From Anaerorhabdus furcosa (GTDB lineage Bacteria > Bacillota_I > Bacilli_A > Erysipelotrichales > Erysipelotrichaceae): DNA of 64,000 bases. The notes beneath the pieces are model-generated. The model saw nothing but the letters and a program-made list of their open reading frames with translations, was not told where the DNA came from and did not search any database. The position numbers were made by a program, and so were the translations under genes. Location: positions 1 through 64,000 of the forward strand of contig NZ_FUWY01000003.1 of assembly GCF_900167375.1 (NCBI RefSeq). The letters run 5' to 3'. Position 1 is the first letter of the stretch. The number at the start of each line of letters is the position of its first letter. Of this stretch, positions 31,083-36,638 are shown piece after piece.

Positions 31083-32008
31083 TGAGAAGAAAAATCATAT
31101 TCGATTGTGATCCAGGACATGATGATATCTTCGCAATCTTATTTGCACTAGCTCATCCCGAGGAATTTGAAATCCTCGGGTTCGCTACGGTTGCAGGGAA
31201 TCAAACATTAGATAAGGTTAGCAATAACCTAGCCAATGTACTTGATTTTCTACATCTTGATTTACCAATATACAAAGGCTATGACAAACCTATCGCAAAA
31301 CCACTTGAGGTTCAACCTCTAGCTCATGGTGAAAGTGGTTTAGATGGTCCTGTCTTTCCAAAAAAAGAACATCAGTTTCAAACAAAACACGCAATTGAAT
31401 TTTATAAAGAAATGTTAGAGACACATGATCAAATTTCAATCATCGCCATTGGACCACTGACAAATGTTGCACTTATGTTAAAAACATATCCTCATCTCAT
31501 ACACAAGATTGAATGTATTTCTTGTATGGGTGGTGGTATTCACGAAGGTAATATTCAAAAACGTTCTGAATTTAATATTTATCACGATCCTGAAGCCGCA
31601 AAAATAGTATTTGAAAGTGGTGTTCCAGTGATTCTCAATCCACTTGAAGTATGTGTTGCAGGTGGTATTACTTTTGCGGAAATGGATTTATTCAACACGA
31701 AAGCTCCAGTTAGTAAACTTGTATATGAACTCTTTGAATTTTACTCTCGCTATAGTAAAGAGCACAACATGTCTTCTTCACCTATCTTCGATGTATGTCC
31801 TCTATTTTATTTGTATAAACCTGAATTCTTTAAAGGATTTAAAGCAAATGTATTCATCGAATTAAATGGTAATTATACTCGTGGAATGACTGTTGTCGAA
31901 GAATCAGAACAAGGAAATACATTGGTATTGTTTGATGTGGATCGTGATGGTTTCATCCAATCCTTTATCGAAAGCATCTTTACATTAGATAGGAACCTTC
32001 AATTATGA
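31082..32008 (+). CDS. Inosine-uridine-preferring nucleoside hydrolase
   Basis: The N-terminal calcium-binding signature IIFDCDPGHDD (D8, D10, D14, D15), IAIGPLTNVALML, MGGGIHEGN..RSEFNIYHDPEAA and PIFDVCPLFYL identify an IU-nucleoside hydrolase of 308 residues. It cuts the N-glycosidic bond of imported nucleosides, giving free base and ribose. The base could feed Hpt (17866-18402). The ribose could be trapped by the ribokinase of the facing operon (35757-36638). Lacking a signal peptide, it should be cytoplasmic. It is coupled at both ends (TAATG and ATGA overlaps). Confidence 0.93.
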   Translation: MRRKIIFDCDPGHDDIFAILFALAHPEEFEILGFATVAGNQTLDKVSNNLANVLDFLHLDLPIYKGYDKPIAKPLEVQPLAHGESGLDGPVFPKKEHQFQTKHAIEFYKEMLETHDQISIIAIGPLTNVALMLKTYPHLIHKIECISCMGGGIHEGNIQKRSEFNIYHDPEAAKIVFESGVPVILNPLEVCVAGGITFAEMDLFNTKAPVSKLVYELFEFYSRYSKEHNMSSSPIFDVCPLFYLYKPEFFKGFKANVFIELNGNYTRGMTVVEESEQGNTLVLFDVDRDGFIQSFIESIFTLDRNLQL

Positions 32009-33285
32009 AAGATCTCGCTTATTTAACATTAGAAAAATACAAAGATGAATTATTAGATCTTGCAACTACTTTATTCAATACTCCAGAACTTGGTTATAAA
32101 GAAATAAAAACAAAATGTATCATTCAAAACTTCTTAATCAAACACGGATTTAGAATCGAAAAAGAATATTTCGAAACTGGATTCCAAGTAACAATTGGAC
32201 AAAGTGAAAAACCACATATTGGTTTAATTGCTGAATTAGATGCAATTCCTACTTTAGGACATCGTTGTGCTAATCCTCTTGATCATGCTGCCCATAGTTG
32301 TGGACATTCTACACAAGTTGTTATGATGATAGGTGCTTTGTTAGCATTGAAAGATTTAATTGATACAAACCAAATCAAAGGGAAGATAACTTTATTCTTT
32401 TGCCCAGCTGAAGAATTCATTGATATTGATTATCGTAAGCAGCTCATTCAAGAGAAAAAGATTTATGCCATTGGTGGTAAACAAAATATGATCATTGATC
32501 ACATTTTCGATGATGTAGATTGTATTCTTCATGCTCATGGTATGGGTGAATTTCGCAAGTATCGCTTCAATGTAAAATCATCTCTTGCAGGATTTGTATA
32601 CAAAAAATATCATTTCCTTGGAAAAGCATCACATGCTGCTATGGCACCAAGTGAAGGTATCAATGCATTGTCCGCATGCAATTTATTTCTTCAAGCACAA
32701 GCAATGCTTCGAGAAACATTCTTAGATAGTGATATGAATCGAATTCATGGTATTATAACCAAAGGTGGTGATGTTGTAAACTCAATACCATCTGAAGTTA
32801 TCTATGAAGCCTATGTTCGCTCATTTTCAACAACAACCTTAATTAAGTTAAACCAGCAATTATCTGATGCAGCTAAGCATTGCGCTCTAGCAATTGGAGC
32901 AGATTGTGATATCGAAGAAATTAAAGGTTATTTCCCATTCAATCAAGATATCAATTTATCTGATGTCGTTTATCAAAATATGCTTCCATTTGTTGATTCC
33001 AAAATGATTCAAACAGATGAAAAAAGTGTGGCTTCAGGTGATATCGGTGACTTAAGTTTATTTAAACCAACTATTCAATTTGGCTATACGGGTTTCAAAG
33101 GAACAATGCATGGTAAAGACTTAGAAATAAGTGAACCTGATATAGTTTATACAACCTCATCAAAAATAGTCATTGGTTCAATCATCGATTTACTCACAAA
33201 TGAAAAATCTTTAGATAAAATCATCAACACATTTGTACAACAAATGACAATTGATGAATATAAAAACTACATCTTAAATTCATAA
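32005..33285 (+). CDS. M20-family amidohydrolase
   Basis: The 426-residue protein has the M20D pattern: LFNTPELGYKE, IGLIAELDAIP, HSCGHSTQVVMMIGA (Zn ligands), LFFCPAEEF, and a dimerisation segment with KYHFLGKASHAAMAPSEGINAL. The family deacylates N-acyl amino acids or cleaves p-aminobenzoyl-glutamate and similar amides. Its place at the end of a nucleoside operon suggests an amide linked to a modified nucleoside or base, but this is inference. Its ATGA start overlap with the nucleoside hydrolase shows coupling. A 10-bp hairpin follows its stop. Confidence 0.88.
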   Translation: MKDLAYLTLEKYKDELLDLATTLFNTPELGYKEIKTKCIIQNFLIKHGFRIEKEYFETGFQVTIGQSEKPHIGLIAELDAIPTLGHRCANPLDHAAHSCGHSTQVVMMIGALLALKDLIDTNQIKGKITLFFCPAEEFIDIDYRKQLIQEKKIYAIGGKQNMIIDHIFDDVDCILHAHGMGEFRKYRFNVKSSLAGFVYKKYHFLGKASHAAMAPSEGINALSACNLFLQAQAMLRETFLDSDMNRIHGIITKGGDVVNSIPSEVIYEAYVRSFSTTTLIKLNQQLSDAAKHCALAIGADCDIEEIKGYFPFNQDINLSDVVYQNMLPFVDSKMIQTDEKSVASGDIGDLSLFKPTIQFGYTGFKGTMHGKDLEISEPDIVYTTSSKIVIGSIIDLLTNEKSLDKIINTFVQQMTIDEYKNYILNS

Positions 33286-33295
33286 AAATATCAAG

Positions 33296-33321
33296 ATTCA
33301 TGATAGCCTATTATCATGAAT
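33296..33321 (+). terminator. Terminator of the nucleoside operon
   Basis: ATTCATGATA (33296-33305) and TATCATGAAT (33312-33321) make a perfect 10-bp stem with a 6-base loop, followed by TTTATTTTC. Read leftwards it is followed by CTTGATATTTTT, so it might also end an antisense RNA from the first peptide cassette. Confidence 0.75.
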
Positions 33322-33398
33322 TTTATTTTCTCAAAAATGATATATTTATCAATTTCTATACTTATAAGAACTACCTATAATTATTCTTTCATCTGTGA

Positions 33399-33404
33399 TA
33401 TAAA
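33399..33404 (+). promoter_or_regulatory. Extended -10 promoter of peptide cassette 1
   Basis: TGATATAAA (33396-33404) is a TGn-extended -10 box (TATAAA) about 50 bp before the peptide start. It is identical in copy 2 (33900-33905). No good -35 hexamer is seen. Confidence 0.5.
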
Positions 33405-33419
33405 GAACTATTACTAGTC

Positions 33420-33444
33420 CACTTTCTTTAATGTAAAGGAGGTG
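33420..33444 (+). promoter_or_regulatory. Hairpin sequestering the Shine-Dalgarno site of peptide 1
   Basis: CACTTTCTTTA (33420-33430) can pair along its full length with TAAAGGAGGTG (33434-33444), including two G-U pairs, around a 3-base loop. The right arm is the Shine-Dalgarno sequence, so the folded mRNA would hide the ribosome site. Confidence 0.7.
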
Positions 33445-33451
33445 AAATACA

Positions 33452-33538
33452 ATGGAATTGGTCGTTATGATTCACGCTATCGCAGCAAGTATAATTGCTT
33501 ATTATATTTGCAAATGGCTAGACAGCAATAGAGACTAG
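33452..33538 (+). CDS. 28-residue hydrophobic peptide, type I toxin-like (copy 1)
   Basis: The peptide starts MELVVMIHAI and ends YYICKWLDSNRD. It has one hydrophobic membrane-spanning stretch of about 18 residues followed by a short charged tail. An almost perfect Shine-Dalgarno sequence (AAAGGAGGTGA) precedes the ATG by nine bases and is itself hidden in a hairpin. A 12-bp terminator follows 15 bp after the stop. Small size, membrane helix, charged tail, buried ribosome site and compact transcript are all hallmarks of type I toxins. I recall similar YYICKWLD-type small ORFs in Firmicutes, but no function is established here. A regulatory or signalling peptide is the alternative. Confidence 0.7.
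   Translation: MELVVMIHAIAASIIAYYICKWLDSNRD
33501..33528 (-). promoter_or_regulatory. Possible antisense promoter inside peptide gene 1
   Basis: Read leftwards: -35 TTGCTG (33528-33523), a 16-bp spacer, and -10 TATAAT (33506-33501). A transcript would start near 33494 and cover the 5' half of the peptide gene, its Shine-Dalgarno site and leader. The TATAAT may be a by-product of coding Tyr-Tyr-Ile. Confidence 0.4.
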
Positions 33539-33553
33539 TAATTAGCATAAATG

Positions 33554-33583
33554 AAAAGGCAAGAGTTGCACCTCTTGCCTTTT
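33554..33583 (+). terminator. Terminator of peptide cassette 1
   Basis: AAAAGGCAAGAG (33554-33565) and CTCTTGCCTTTT (33572-33583) form a perfect 12-bp stem with loop TTGCAC; the 3' arm supplies the T-run. Confidence 0.9.
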
Positions 33584-33899
33584 CCTATACAATGGAATTG
33601 ATATACTTATTATATATCATCATTTGAAAAAATCAACTAATTTTCTTAGTTAACAAATAAAAAATTGTTTAGAATTTATATAATATTCTGGTTACTTCAA
33701 TATCATTAGAAGTGACCTAAGATTCTATGATTAATTAGGCACAAGAACTGACTAAATAATGATATAAAACGGATTACTAAATTCTAATAAAATAATATTT
33801 GTATCACTAAATTTTCGTGAATTTTATTTTCTCAAAAATGATATATTTATTAATTTCTATACTTATAAGAACTACCTGTAATTATTTTCTCATCTGTGA

Positions 33900-33905
33900 T
33901 ATAAA
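33900..33905 (+). promoter_or_regulatory. Extended -10 promoter of peptide cassette 2
   Basis: TGATATAAA (33897-33905) is identical to the box in copy 1 and stands in the same place relative to the peptide gene. Confidence 0.5.
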
Positions 33906-33920
33906 GTACTATTACTAGTC

Positions 33921-33945
33921 CACTTTCTTTAATGCAGAGGAGGTG
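33921..33945 (+). promoter_or_regulatory. Hairpin sequestering the Shine-Dalgarno site of peptide 2
   Basis: CACTTTCTTTA (33921-33931) pairs with CAGAGGAGGTG (33935-33945) through ten of eleven positions, using three G-U pairs. The fold is weaker than in copy 1 but the Shine-Dalgarno sequence is still covered. Confidence 0.6.
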
Positions 33946-33952
33946 AAATGTA

Positions 33953-34039
33953 GTGGAATTGGTCGTTATGATTCACGCTATCGCAGCAAGTATAATTGCT
34001 TATTATATTTTCAAATGGCTAGATAGCAATAGAGACTAG
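33953..34039 (+). CDS. 28-residue hydrophobic peptide, type I toxin-like (copy 2)
   Basis: It differs from copy 1 by only one residue, Cys20 to Phe (YYIFKWLDSNRD), and begins with GTG instead of ATG. The other change in the coding part (GAC to GAT) is silent. The hydrophobic helix, charged tail, hairpin-masked AGAGGAGGTGA ribosome site and 12-bp terminator are kept. The weaker start codon and weaker masking hairpin may balance each other. An internal antisense promoter-like pair is present as in copy 1 (34002-34029). The two copies might have diverged so that each responds to its own antisense RNA, or copy 2 may be decaying. Confidence 0.65.
   Translation: MELVVMIHAIAASIIAYYIFKWLDSNRD
34002..34029 (-). 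promoter_or_regulatory. Possible antisense promoter inside peptide gene 2
   Basis: -35 TTGCTA (34029-34024), a 16-bp spacer and -10 TATAAT (34007-34002) read leftwards, equivalent to 33501-33528 in copy 1. Confidence 0.38.
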
Positions 34040-34054
34040 TAATTAGCATAAATG

Positions 34055-34084
34055 AAAAGGCAAGAGTCGGACCTCTTGCCTTTT
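34055..34084 (+). terminator. Terminator of peptide cassette 2
   Basis: The 12-bp stem AAAAGGCAAGAG/CTCTTGCCTTTT is identical to copy 1. The loop has changed to TCGGAC, two differences out of six. Confidence 0.9.
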
Positions 34085-34165
34085 CTACTGCAGTGGAATT
34101 GATATTCTTATTATATATTATAGTTTAAAAAATGCAACTAATTTTCTTAGTTAATAAATAAAAAT

Positions 34166-35770
34166 TTATTTTGCGTTTTTATGAAGTCTTTGTTGCTTCA
34201 TTTCTTCAATATCCTCTTGAGTAAATATTCCTTGTTTAACATAATAATCAGTATCCAATTCATCCAGATGAATAACATCTTCATTTTTAATTGCTTCAAC
34301 TAATTCTTTTTTTAGTTTCCAAAATTGTTCATTTTTATTACGTAACATTTTAGGAAAAATCGGAGGATTTGCTTCTCGATAGAAATTGATTTTCATTTCA
34401 TCTAATTTCACAAATTTTCCATCTTCAATTGTATTGGGTAAACCATATTCCATTTCATAATTTACTAAGCGTTGATTTAAATTATTTCTTATCGATTCAT
34501 ATCGTTCAGGATTTACTTCTAATACATTCGTTGTTTCATTTGGATCATTTATTCTATCAAATAATTCTTCTCTACCCAAACTAAAATAATAATTATATTT
34601 AAACTCTTGAGTACATATACTCACCCATCTTCTATTACCACGGCAATGTTCCATAAACACTTCAGCTTTTCCGGTATGCTTTTCAAGTAGTGATTGTCCT
34701 GGTAACTTTATTGCTCCTGGATATTTTAGTCCAGCAGCATCCATCATAGTTGGAAGAATATCATTCAAACTTACTAAGCGATTATCAATTGTATGTGGCG
34801 CAATGCGACGAGGATAGCGAACAATCATCGGCACTCTACTTGAAGAATCATACGGTAAGAATTTTTGATAAGTACCATAATCTCCAAGCATCTCCCCATG
34901 ATCACTTGTAAAGATAATGAGTGTGTTATCATATTCTCCAATCTCTTTTAATTTTTGTATTATTCTTCCAATATGAGTATCTACATGAGTAATTGCAGAA
35001 TAATAACATTCTTTTGCTCTTCTTAAATAAGATTCATTTGGATAATCCGCAATATTCATATTTTCTAATGCAAGATTACTCAAACTAGTCTTACTTTCCT
35101 TAGATGTTGGAATTTCTTTATCACGATAGATGTCTTGGTATTCTTTTGGAACATCAAATGGTGGATGCGGTGCAATAAAGCCTGCCCAAATCAAAAACGG
35201 TCTTTCTAAAGATATCGTATCTAATGTTTCAATCGTTTTATTGGCTACCCAAGTTGTCCCATGATCTTCTTCTTTAACCAATGACTCTTGTGGTTGCATA
35301 TAAAGCATGTGACGTACCCCATGAACACTTTGAAGATGCGTATATCCTTTTTCTCTTAGATACAACGCATAGTCATCATCTTCAAGAAAACGTGGAATTT
35401 CATCCATTAATAAAAGTCGATTAAATCCATTGTGTGCTCGGTAAGGTTGAAAATGCATTTTACCAATCGCAACAGTATTGTAACGATCATCTTGCAGTAT
35501 TTCTGCAAATGTTGGCAAATCATATGGAATTGATTTTGATTCATCAAAATAGTTATCATCAAACCCATGATACTTTGCAGTCAAACCTGTAAGTAAATTA
35601 TGACGTGCTGGTATACAAACAGGATTGGGTGAATAGGCATTCGTGAATAAGCAACCCTCATCTGCTAGTGCATCTAGGTTGGGAGTAATCATATGATCAT
35701 AACCCGCACAATGCAGCGTATCATATCGTTGTTGATCTGTTGTAATAAGTAAGATATTAGGCTTCTTCAT
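34166..35770 (-). CDS. Cys-type sulfatase
   Basis: This is a 534-residue alkaline-phosphatase-superfamily sulfatase. It opens with KPNILLITTDQQRYDTLHCAGY (metal Asp and adjacent residues). The formylglycine site C52-x-P-x-R56 (CIPAR) and IFTSDHGEMLGDYGTYQK supply further metal ligands. Cys52 must be oxidised to formylglycine, and the radical-SAM enzyme for this is in the same operon. No signal peptide is seen, so a cytoplasmic role on an imported sulfated compound is likely. The frame runs to 35785, but ATG 35770 lies nine bases after GAGG. The start overlaps the ribokinase stop by 14 bases. Confidence 0.92.
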   Translation of the reverse strand: MKKPNILLITTDQQRYDTLHCAGYDHMITPNLDALADEGCLFTNAYSPNPVCIPARHNLLTGLTAKYHGFDDNYFDESKSIPYDLPTFAEILQDDRYNTVAIGKMHFQPYRAHNGFNRLLLMDEIPRFLEDDDYALYLREKGYTHLQSVHGVRHMLYMQPQESLVKEEDHGTTWVANKTIETLDTISLERPFLIWAGFIAPHPPFDVPKEYQDIYRDKEIPTSKESKTSLSNLALENMNIADYPNESYLRRAKECYYSAITHVDTHIGRIIQKLKEIGEYDNTLIIFTSDHGEMLGDYGTYQKFLPYDSSSRVPMIVRYPRRIAPHTIDNRLVSLNDILPTMMDAAGLKYPGAIKLPGQSLLEKHTGKAEVFMEHCRGNRRWVSICTQEFKYNYYFSLGREELFDRINDPNETTNVLEVNPERYESIRNNLNQRLVNYEMEYGLPNTIEDGKFVKLDEMKINFYREANPPIFPKMLRNKNEQFWKLKKELVEAIKNEDVIHLDELDTDYYVKQGIFTQEDIEEMKQQRLHKNAK

Positions 35771-36638
35771 ACTGTTCAACCTCATCTAATGTAGGCATAG
35801 CACTTTGTGCACCAATCTTACCAATAGAAATCCCTGCAGCGATATTCGCTTTTTCCAATGCATCAACCAAGTTGATTTCCTGTGCAATAAAAGCCGCTAA
35901 TGCGCCATTAAAGGTATCTCCTGCACCTGTAGTATCAACTACATTTACTTTTTTAGGATGAATATGTACTAATTGATTACCATCATGCATGAAGGCACCT
36001 TCACTCCCTTTTGTCATGATAATTTTATTTGGATATTTACACAATACTTCTTCATAGGATTCATCAAACATTGCATTAATTTCAGTTTCATTGGGAGTGA
36101 AATATGTAACCTTATCAATTATCGTTTTATCAAATGGTACAAAAGGAGCTGGATTTAAAATTGTTTTGATACCGTGCTCATAACAATAGTCCACAAGATA
36201 AAATACAGTTTCTAATGGTATTTCAAATTGCAATACAACCATACTTGCTTCTTGAATGACTTCAAGATATTGTTTAATAAATTCAATATTTATTTTTTCA
36301 TTTGCTCCTTTAATAATTACGATTTGATTATCATTCTCAGCAACTGTAATACTTGCAAGTCCTGTACTTATACCATTCAACTTAGCAACTGATGAAATAC
36401 CAACCCCATGATCTTTCAAATTATTTAATGCAAGATCACCATATGAATCATCTCCAACAGCACCAATAAATTCAACATGTCCACCAAGCTTACTTGCACT
36501 AACTGCTTGATTCGCTCCTTTACCTCCACAAAATACATTGAATGAATTACCAATAATGGTTTCTCCTTTTTTAGGAAAACGCTCACTACTTACCACTAGA
36601 TCTACATTAATACTTCCAATTACCACAATCTTTTTCAT
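35757..36638 (-). CDS. rbsK: Ribokinase / PfkB-family sugar kinase
   Basis: Motifs IGSINVDLVVSSERFPKKGETI, FCGGKGANQAVSASKLGG and the C-terminal VVDTTGAGDTFNGALAAFI (catalytic Asp) are those of ribokinase. It would make ribose-5-phosphate from ribose and ATP. Length from ATG 36638 (after AAGGAG) is 293 residues; an upstream in-frame start at 36677 is less well placed. Sandwiched between a sulfatase and its maturase, it might phosphorylate a sugar freed from a sulfated compound. It could also act on ribose made by the nucleoside hydrolase encoded nearby. Substrate choice between ribose and a related sugar is not provable here. Confidence 0.88.
   Translation of the reverse strand: MKKIVVIGSINVDLVVSSERFPKKGETIIGNSFNVFCGGKGANQAVSASKLGGHVEFIGAVGDDSYGDLALNNLKDHGVGISSVAKLNGISTGLASITVAENDNQIVIIKGANEKINIEFIKQYLEVIQEASMVVLQFEIPLETVFYLVDYCYEHGIKTILNPAPFVPFDKTIIDKVTYFTPNETEINAMFDESYEEVLCKYPNKIIMTKGSEGAFMHDGNQLVHIHPKKVNVVDTTGAGDTFNGALAAFIAQEINLVDALEKANIAAGISIGKIGAQSAMPTLDEVEQYEEA

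Follow-up and report, generated by a model that had tools for sequence, protein, structure and literature searches.

Two tandem copies of a short cassette in the chromosome of Anaerorhabdus furcosa are each, very probably, a complete type I toxin-antitoxin module that belongs to the par/Fst kind, a reading that extends from the sequence to the presumed transcription, toxicity, antitoxin action and physiological role of the products. The window analyzed here is a stretch of 64,000 nucleotides, and all coordinates refer to it. The cassette pair is intergenic, with an M20 peptidase gene (32005-33285, plus strand) on its left and a sulfatase gene (34166-35785, minus strand) on its right; the flanking operons are a nucleoside-transport/hydrolase/M20 operon and a sulfatase/PfkB/radical-SAM operon, respectively. 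The two whole repeat units lie on the plus strand at 33310-33660 and 33811-34161 and match without gaps at an offset of 501, with 322 of 351 positions identical (91.7%), which confirms the ungapped tandem repeats of about 92% identity described in a previous sequence-only reading of this DNA. The pair would have originated in a tandem duplication. Between the cassettes, at 33690-33725, an inverted repeat that is short and imperfect was observed (GGTTACTTC / GAAGTGACC).

Each copy carries a predicted toxin ORF of 28 codons on the plus strand. The ORF of copy 1 (33452-33538) starts with ATG, encodes MELVVMIHAIAASIIAYYICKWLDSNRD and is recognizable from its sequence and its homologues; the ORF of copy 2 (33953-34039) starts with GTG, and its product differs by a single C-to-F change (C20F). 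The hydropathy of the copy 1 peptide over 18 residues is 2.21. Both window peptides contain KWLD, where the W is placed between the hydrophobic helix and the charged tail and is invariant in a family alignment of 44 rows. Searches with the window peptides returned no match in Pfam and NCBIfam, the peptide had no match in a sequence search of the PDB, and Rfam at its gathering cut-offs had none across the whole window. The PHROGs search gave an unknown family and weak holin matches only, and a literature text search for the peptide motif retrieved no relevant paper. A holin or Ldr identity was set aside because the Pfam matches of relatives are weak and of mixed kinds.

The predicted toxin mRNA begins behind an extended -10 box, TGaTATAAA, found on the plus strand in both copies (33396-33404 and 33897-33905). 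In copy 1, the 5' end of the mRNA, TTACTAGTC (33411-33419), pairs in the minimum free energy fold with GACTAGTAA (33533-33541), which lies over the stop codon; the corresponding pairing in copy 2 joins 33912-33920 with 34034-34042. The 5' end is followed by a stem-loop (33420-33444; 33921-33945 in copy 2) that holds the Shine-Dalgarno (SD) sequence AGGAGG (33437-33442). The stem in copy 1 has 11 bp, with CACTTTCTTTA (33420-33430) fully paired to TAAAGGAGGTG (33434-33444). Plus-strand transcripts of 183 nt fold far more stably than their dinucleotide shuffles, with z-scores of -5.8 for copy 1 and -5.0 for copy 2. An mRNA with a locked ribosome site and with its leader paired to the stop-codon region should be stable and poorly translated. 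The 28-residue membrane peptide, the promoter-like box and the masked ribosome site had all been proposed for each copy from the letters alone, and all three are borne out.

Behind each ORF there is a bidirectional terminator that serves both strands (33553-33584 in copy 1, with a 13-bp stem flanked by an A-run and a T-run, and 34054-34085 in copy 2). Both hairpins were detected in a terminator scan of the window, which yielded 2 hits against 0.1 expected in shuffled sequences; a terminator in each copy had been noted before, with a stem counted as 12 bp instead of 13. On the far side of the terminator, we predict a minus-strand antitoxin promoter, TTGATT-16-TATAAT, at 33609-33636 in copy 1; in copy 2 the minus-strand TATAAT at 34110-34115 is present and the -35 box is poor. 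This promoter faces back through a downstream repeat of the start-codon region into the terminator and would therefore produce an RNA of about 57 nt capable of pairing with its own mRNA at the start codon. The predicted antitoxin RNAs are located on the minus strand at 33546-33602 (fold z-score -5.8) and 34047-34103 (-5.0). The promoters predicted in the window are convergent, and promoters are enriched on both strands among relatives.

The direct repeat that links the two RNAs is found over the toxin start codon (33447-33460, ATACAATGGAATTG; 33948-33961 in copy 2) and again behind the terminator (33587-33600; 34088-34101 in copy 2), both on the plus strand, so that the minus-strand RNA is complementary to the toxin start region. 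The upstream and downstream repeats of copy 1 are an exact 14-nt match (ATACAATGGAATTG twice). In copy 2 they read ATGTAGTGGAATTG and CTGCAGTGGAATTG. Of the three changes there, two have a mirrored counterpart, including the change of the start codon from ATG to GTG, and the third leaves a G-U pair. Only one clear repeat is present in the window copies. Change between the copies is uneven: three of 87 ORF positions differ, none in the terminator stem and two in the terminator loop, as opposed to five of 18 positions behind the terminator and seven of 38 in the minus-strand promoter. The sequence-only reading had stated that codons and stems are conserved while loops and tails drift; this is not quite the pattern observed, the stretch behind the terminator being the part that changes fastest. 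The fast-changing stretch behind the terminator is the predicted antitoxin, which that reading did not contain.

The source genome (2.4 Mb) holds one more intact copy, at C7:128 kb (MGLFDTIHAIIACIIVYYICKWLDNRGD), and two decayed ones: at C3:88 kb a stop codon replaces the W, and at C6:101 kb the 5' half is missing and stops are present. Such decay gives no clear sign of strong selection for keeping the modules. In the C7 and C3 copies, the start sequence of the copy is repeated behind its own terminator. We calculated duplex energies between antitoxins and targets for four loci, and the cognate pair was lowest in every row of the matrix (-20.4, -21.4, -21.7 and -28.2 kcal/mol). The copy 1 antitoxin scored -20.4 kcal/mol on its own target versus -15.5, -6.4 and -12.0 on three paralogues, and the copy 2 antitoxin -21.4 on its own target versus -12.5 kcal/mol on copy 1; the largest cross term was -19.6 kcal/mol, for the C3 RNA on the C7 mRNA. 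The pairing site has changed in step with the start codon, and each antitoxin should therefore prefer its own toxin. Tandem arrays of two to three copies were also observed in further genomes (G198 C12:19956-20712, L062 and L078), with its own repeat in every copy of the L062 and L078 arrays. The cognate duplex is again strongest in the tandem pair at L062, the locus on which the comparison in tandem pairs elsewhere rests, L078 and the tandem triplet of G198 (L162) having been left out.

In order to evaluate these features beyond one genome, we collected relatives by peptide similarity only, excluding matches within long frames (e.g. G011, 417 aa), and tested 67 dereplicated loci. Sources included genome contigs (27 loci) and viral contigs (17 loci); further relatives came from whole genomes of the family (21 of 273), genomes of the order, phages, and plasmids (401 records at E-values up to 10). 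The score of the best repeat between the start region and the region behind the ORF averaged 11.9 for cognate and 6.8 for non-cognate combinations, and none of 10,000 permutations approached the cognate mean (maximum permuted mean 7.4); the repeat mostly covers the start codon and codons 2-8. Just behind it, 29 of the 47 loci with a clear repeat have a minus-strand TGnTATAAT, where 0.18 are expected. Terminator hairpins are present in 57 of the 67 relatives, 52 of them bidirectional, and in none of the shuffled sequences. The toxin -10 scores 6.56 against 5.01 in shuffles, with TGn and at least five of six matching positions in 46 of the 67. Pairing of the leader with the stop region is stronger for cognate than for non-cognate combinations, and SD bases are paired in 81% of cases versus 66% with shuffled leaders, a modest effect. 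These tests, all computed from sequence, provide strong support for the predicted RNA layout.

The family, with the signature SVxA[GS]…YYICKWLD, is found in Erysipelotrichales, Clostridia, lactobacilli, enterococcal and streptococcal plasmids and viral contigs, and its members fall below Pfam and NCBIfam cut-offs. It is widespread among Firmicutes of the gut and the small plasmids that they carry: members come from Erysipelotrichales and Lachnospiraceae of the gut, from small cryptic plasmids and from E. faecium plasmids, and a query with the family matched 331 Enterococcus records, most of them with weak E-values. Genomes of the order to which the source genome belongs have matches at exactly the positions of the Massilimicrobiota and Erysipelotrichaceae loci, which makes an origin of the window in Erysipelotrichales most likely. 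Homologues beyond the source genome, on which the sequence-only reading had made itself depend, are numerous in contigs, genomes, plasmids and viral contigs. Unannotated members were observed on small plasmids of 3 to 23 kb (L120, L121, L126, L128 and L129) from Waltera, Mediterraneibacter, Mogibacterium, an uncultured bacterium and Butyricicoccus. One member with a cognate repeat (L130, 2001-2096) lies in a sequence submitted as that of an inovirus (bajarodino virus 15), which would be unusual for a Firmicutes module; the record is possibly a mis-assigned small replicon.

The type I toxin-antitoxin assignment made earlier is well supported, on firmer grounds than that reading had, by the predicted antisense RNA, which matches the start codon of its own toxin and is conserved across dozens of relatives. 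The accompanying comparison with the toxins of Clostridia is in need of correction: the window family reaches at most 24.6 bits on NF047374, the C. difficile type I toxin family, whose cut-off is 60 bits, and the layout is that of par/Fst. The C. difficile toxins are small and hydrophobic, with a charged tail and convergent antisense RNAs that are mostly cognate-specific (PMC6563280, PMC7699646). However, they are longer than the window peptides (34-53 aa), and the weak profile similarity is mainly confined to the hydrophobic part.

The cassette most likely represents a branch of the known Fst/par family that is distant and lacks annotation. The par/Fst modules (Enterococcus plasmid pAD1 and NCBI-annotated Fst loci) and the window cassettes have in common convergent promoters, a bidirectional terminator, a masked SD, 5'/3' pairing, direct repeats over the start codon and codons 4-8, and a W between the helix and the charged tail. 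When eight plasmid-annotated Fst loci were subjected to the same repeat test, seven showed repeats placed as in the family, at the start codon and codons 2-8. A profile-profile comparison of the family with Fst aligned over the full length with a probability of 92.6 and a score of 28.8, whereas 200 column permutations did not exceed 15.0. The spacing of the family motif S-xxx-[GS] to the W equals that of the Fst motif P-xxx-G; among 44 relatives, S is found at W-13 in 38 and G at W-9 in 20. The window differs from par/Fst in lacking P-xxx-G, in having only one clear repeat, and in a terminator loop that, judged by eye, has no YUNR motif; where the majority of Fst toxins have P/D/S/T-xxx-G in the helix, the window peptides carry A-xxx-S. 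The window peptides do not match NF033608 (type_I_tox_Fst, cut-off 26 bits), the best of the relatives shown reaches 13.5 bits, and a search for this family in 198 genomes of the class gave no match. On the Fst profile the window peptides score -3.1 bits, no better than shuffles, and thus the link to Fst runs through the family and through SpF66, an Rfam entry considered below. Another relative of Fst, the 29-residue Fst-type toxin Lpt, is encoded on Lacticaseibacillus plasmids, sometimes in multiple copies (PMC11352940), but it belongs to the P-xxx-G class (AIIAPLLVGVFLLL core) and is distant in sequence. We also observed that Rfam RF02848 (RefB11) and RF02844 (RefA9), both catalogued as sRNAs of Enterococcus, map onto annotated Fst toxin mRNA and antisense RNA (at L153, L154, L158 and L161).

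The consensus of RF02442 (SpF66) encodes a complete peptide, MSLILELVLTIIADVIAGIILYFVCKWLDGKE, which scores 40.5 bits on the family profile and 10.8 bits on the Fst profile, a value reached by none of 1,000 shuffles. This match ties the family to the recognized Fst superfamily. The SpF66 peptide has D-xxx-G, a feature of one S. pneumoniae Fst clade (PMC7472228), in place of the A-xxx-S of the window. Members on plasmids of E. faecium and S. thermophilus match RF02442 above its gathering score of 42 bits on the toxin-mRNA strand (L122, 1460-1677; L124, 1453-1649; L123, 1463-1678); the window itself reaches 11.9 bits over part of the model. The pneumococcal RNAs of this entry, F66 and F67 (srn502 and srn503), lie in tandem in the intergenic region between SP2168 and SP2169 and were confirmed by Northern blot; F66 insertions had a fitness of 0 in the nasopharynx (PMC3395615). 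F67 is annotated as an Fst-family toxin in PneumoBrowse (PMC12323649). Like the window copies, F66 and F67 are thus tandem within one intergenic region, and they have so far been described mainly as small RNAs. Their confirmation by Northern blot means that natural expression occurs for a cousin of the arrangement seen in the window. The SpF66 entry, listed as a Streptococcus sRNA, probably describes a toxin mRNA.

Taken together, the proposed module would function as follows. The plus-strand mRNA would encode a 28-residue single-helix membrane peptide, with its ribosome site locked in the 5' stem and its 5' end paired with the stop-codon region. The minus-strand RNA of about 57 nt, made from the far side of the shared bidirectional terminator, would use its 5' end to pair with its own mRNA at the start codon, while its 3' hairpin is complementary to the terminator hairpin of the mRNA; pairing at both sites is expected to block translation initiation. 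If the supply of antitoxin dropped, toxin would be made and the membrane damaged. Toxicity of the peptide and protection by the antisense RNA are suggested by analogy with the Fst superfamily.

It seems unlikely, given what is known of relatives, that the products are benign small membrane proteins which tune a neighboring transporter or enzyme under the same antisense RNA control. The chromosomal site between two catabolic operons would suit such a role, and chromosomal Fst loci are of obscure function, with par-EF0409 encoded between two mannitol PTS operons (PMC7472228), the closest parallel to the window pair. However, homologues are carried by small cryptic and conjugative plasmids and viral contigs among unrelated neighbors, as would be the case for an addiction module, and the Fst and Ldr relatives kill when over-expressed (PMC7472228).

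The stop codon of the C3 copy and the truncation of the C6 copy raise a further explanation, that the tandem pair is a recent duplicate on its way to losing function, intact in sequence and silent. We regard this as quite improbable, since neither window copy has lost its ORF, SD stem, terminator stem or matched pairing sites, and the changes in these sites are coordinated. Finally, a compact repeat with strong hairpins between operons could be a non-coding element (BOX/RUP-like) or an attenuator in which an ORF falls within the hairpins by chance. Its probability is close to negligible: the peptide is conserved over 67 dereplicated loci with differing codons and with its SD and start codon, and a non-coding dispersed repeat was rejected because the start-region repeats are locus-specific. 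The toxin-antitoxin module of the par/Fst kind is therefore the reading that we prefer.

The tandem arrangement invites a broader, doubtful proposal. Tandem par arrays may diversify by duplication followed by co-mutation of the start codon and antisense site, giving rise to orthogonal pairs, and those between catabolic operons may couple the synthesis of a membrane peptide to the operons on either side, through read-through for instance, and not act as mere addiction modules. The placement of the window pair has a parallel in par-EF0409 and in pneumococcal F66 and F67.

This kind of system is already known; the gain lies in the unrecognized breadth of the branch, in pairing sites specific to each locus and in a new reading of SpF66. 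The Fst/par superfamily gains a branch that has been overlooked by profile libraries and plasmid annotation. If SpF66 is a toxin mRNA, as suggested here, its Tn-seq phenotype is to be read differently. The locus-specific repeats offer a simple, annotation-free way to detect such modules and to predict which antitoxin partners which toxin.
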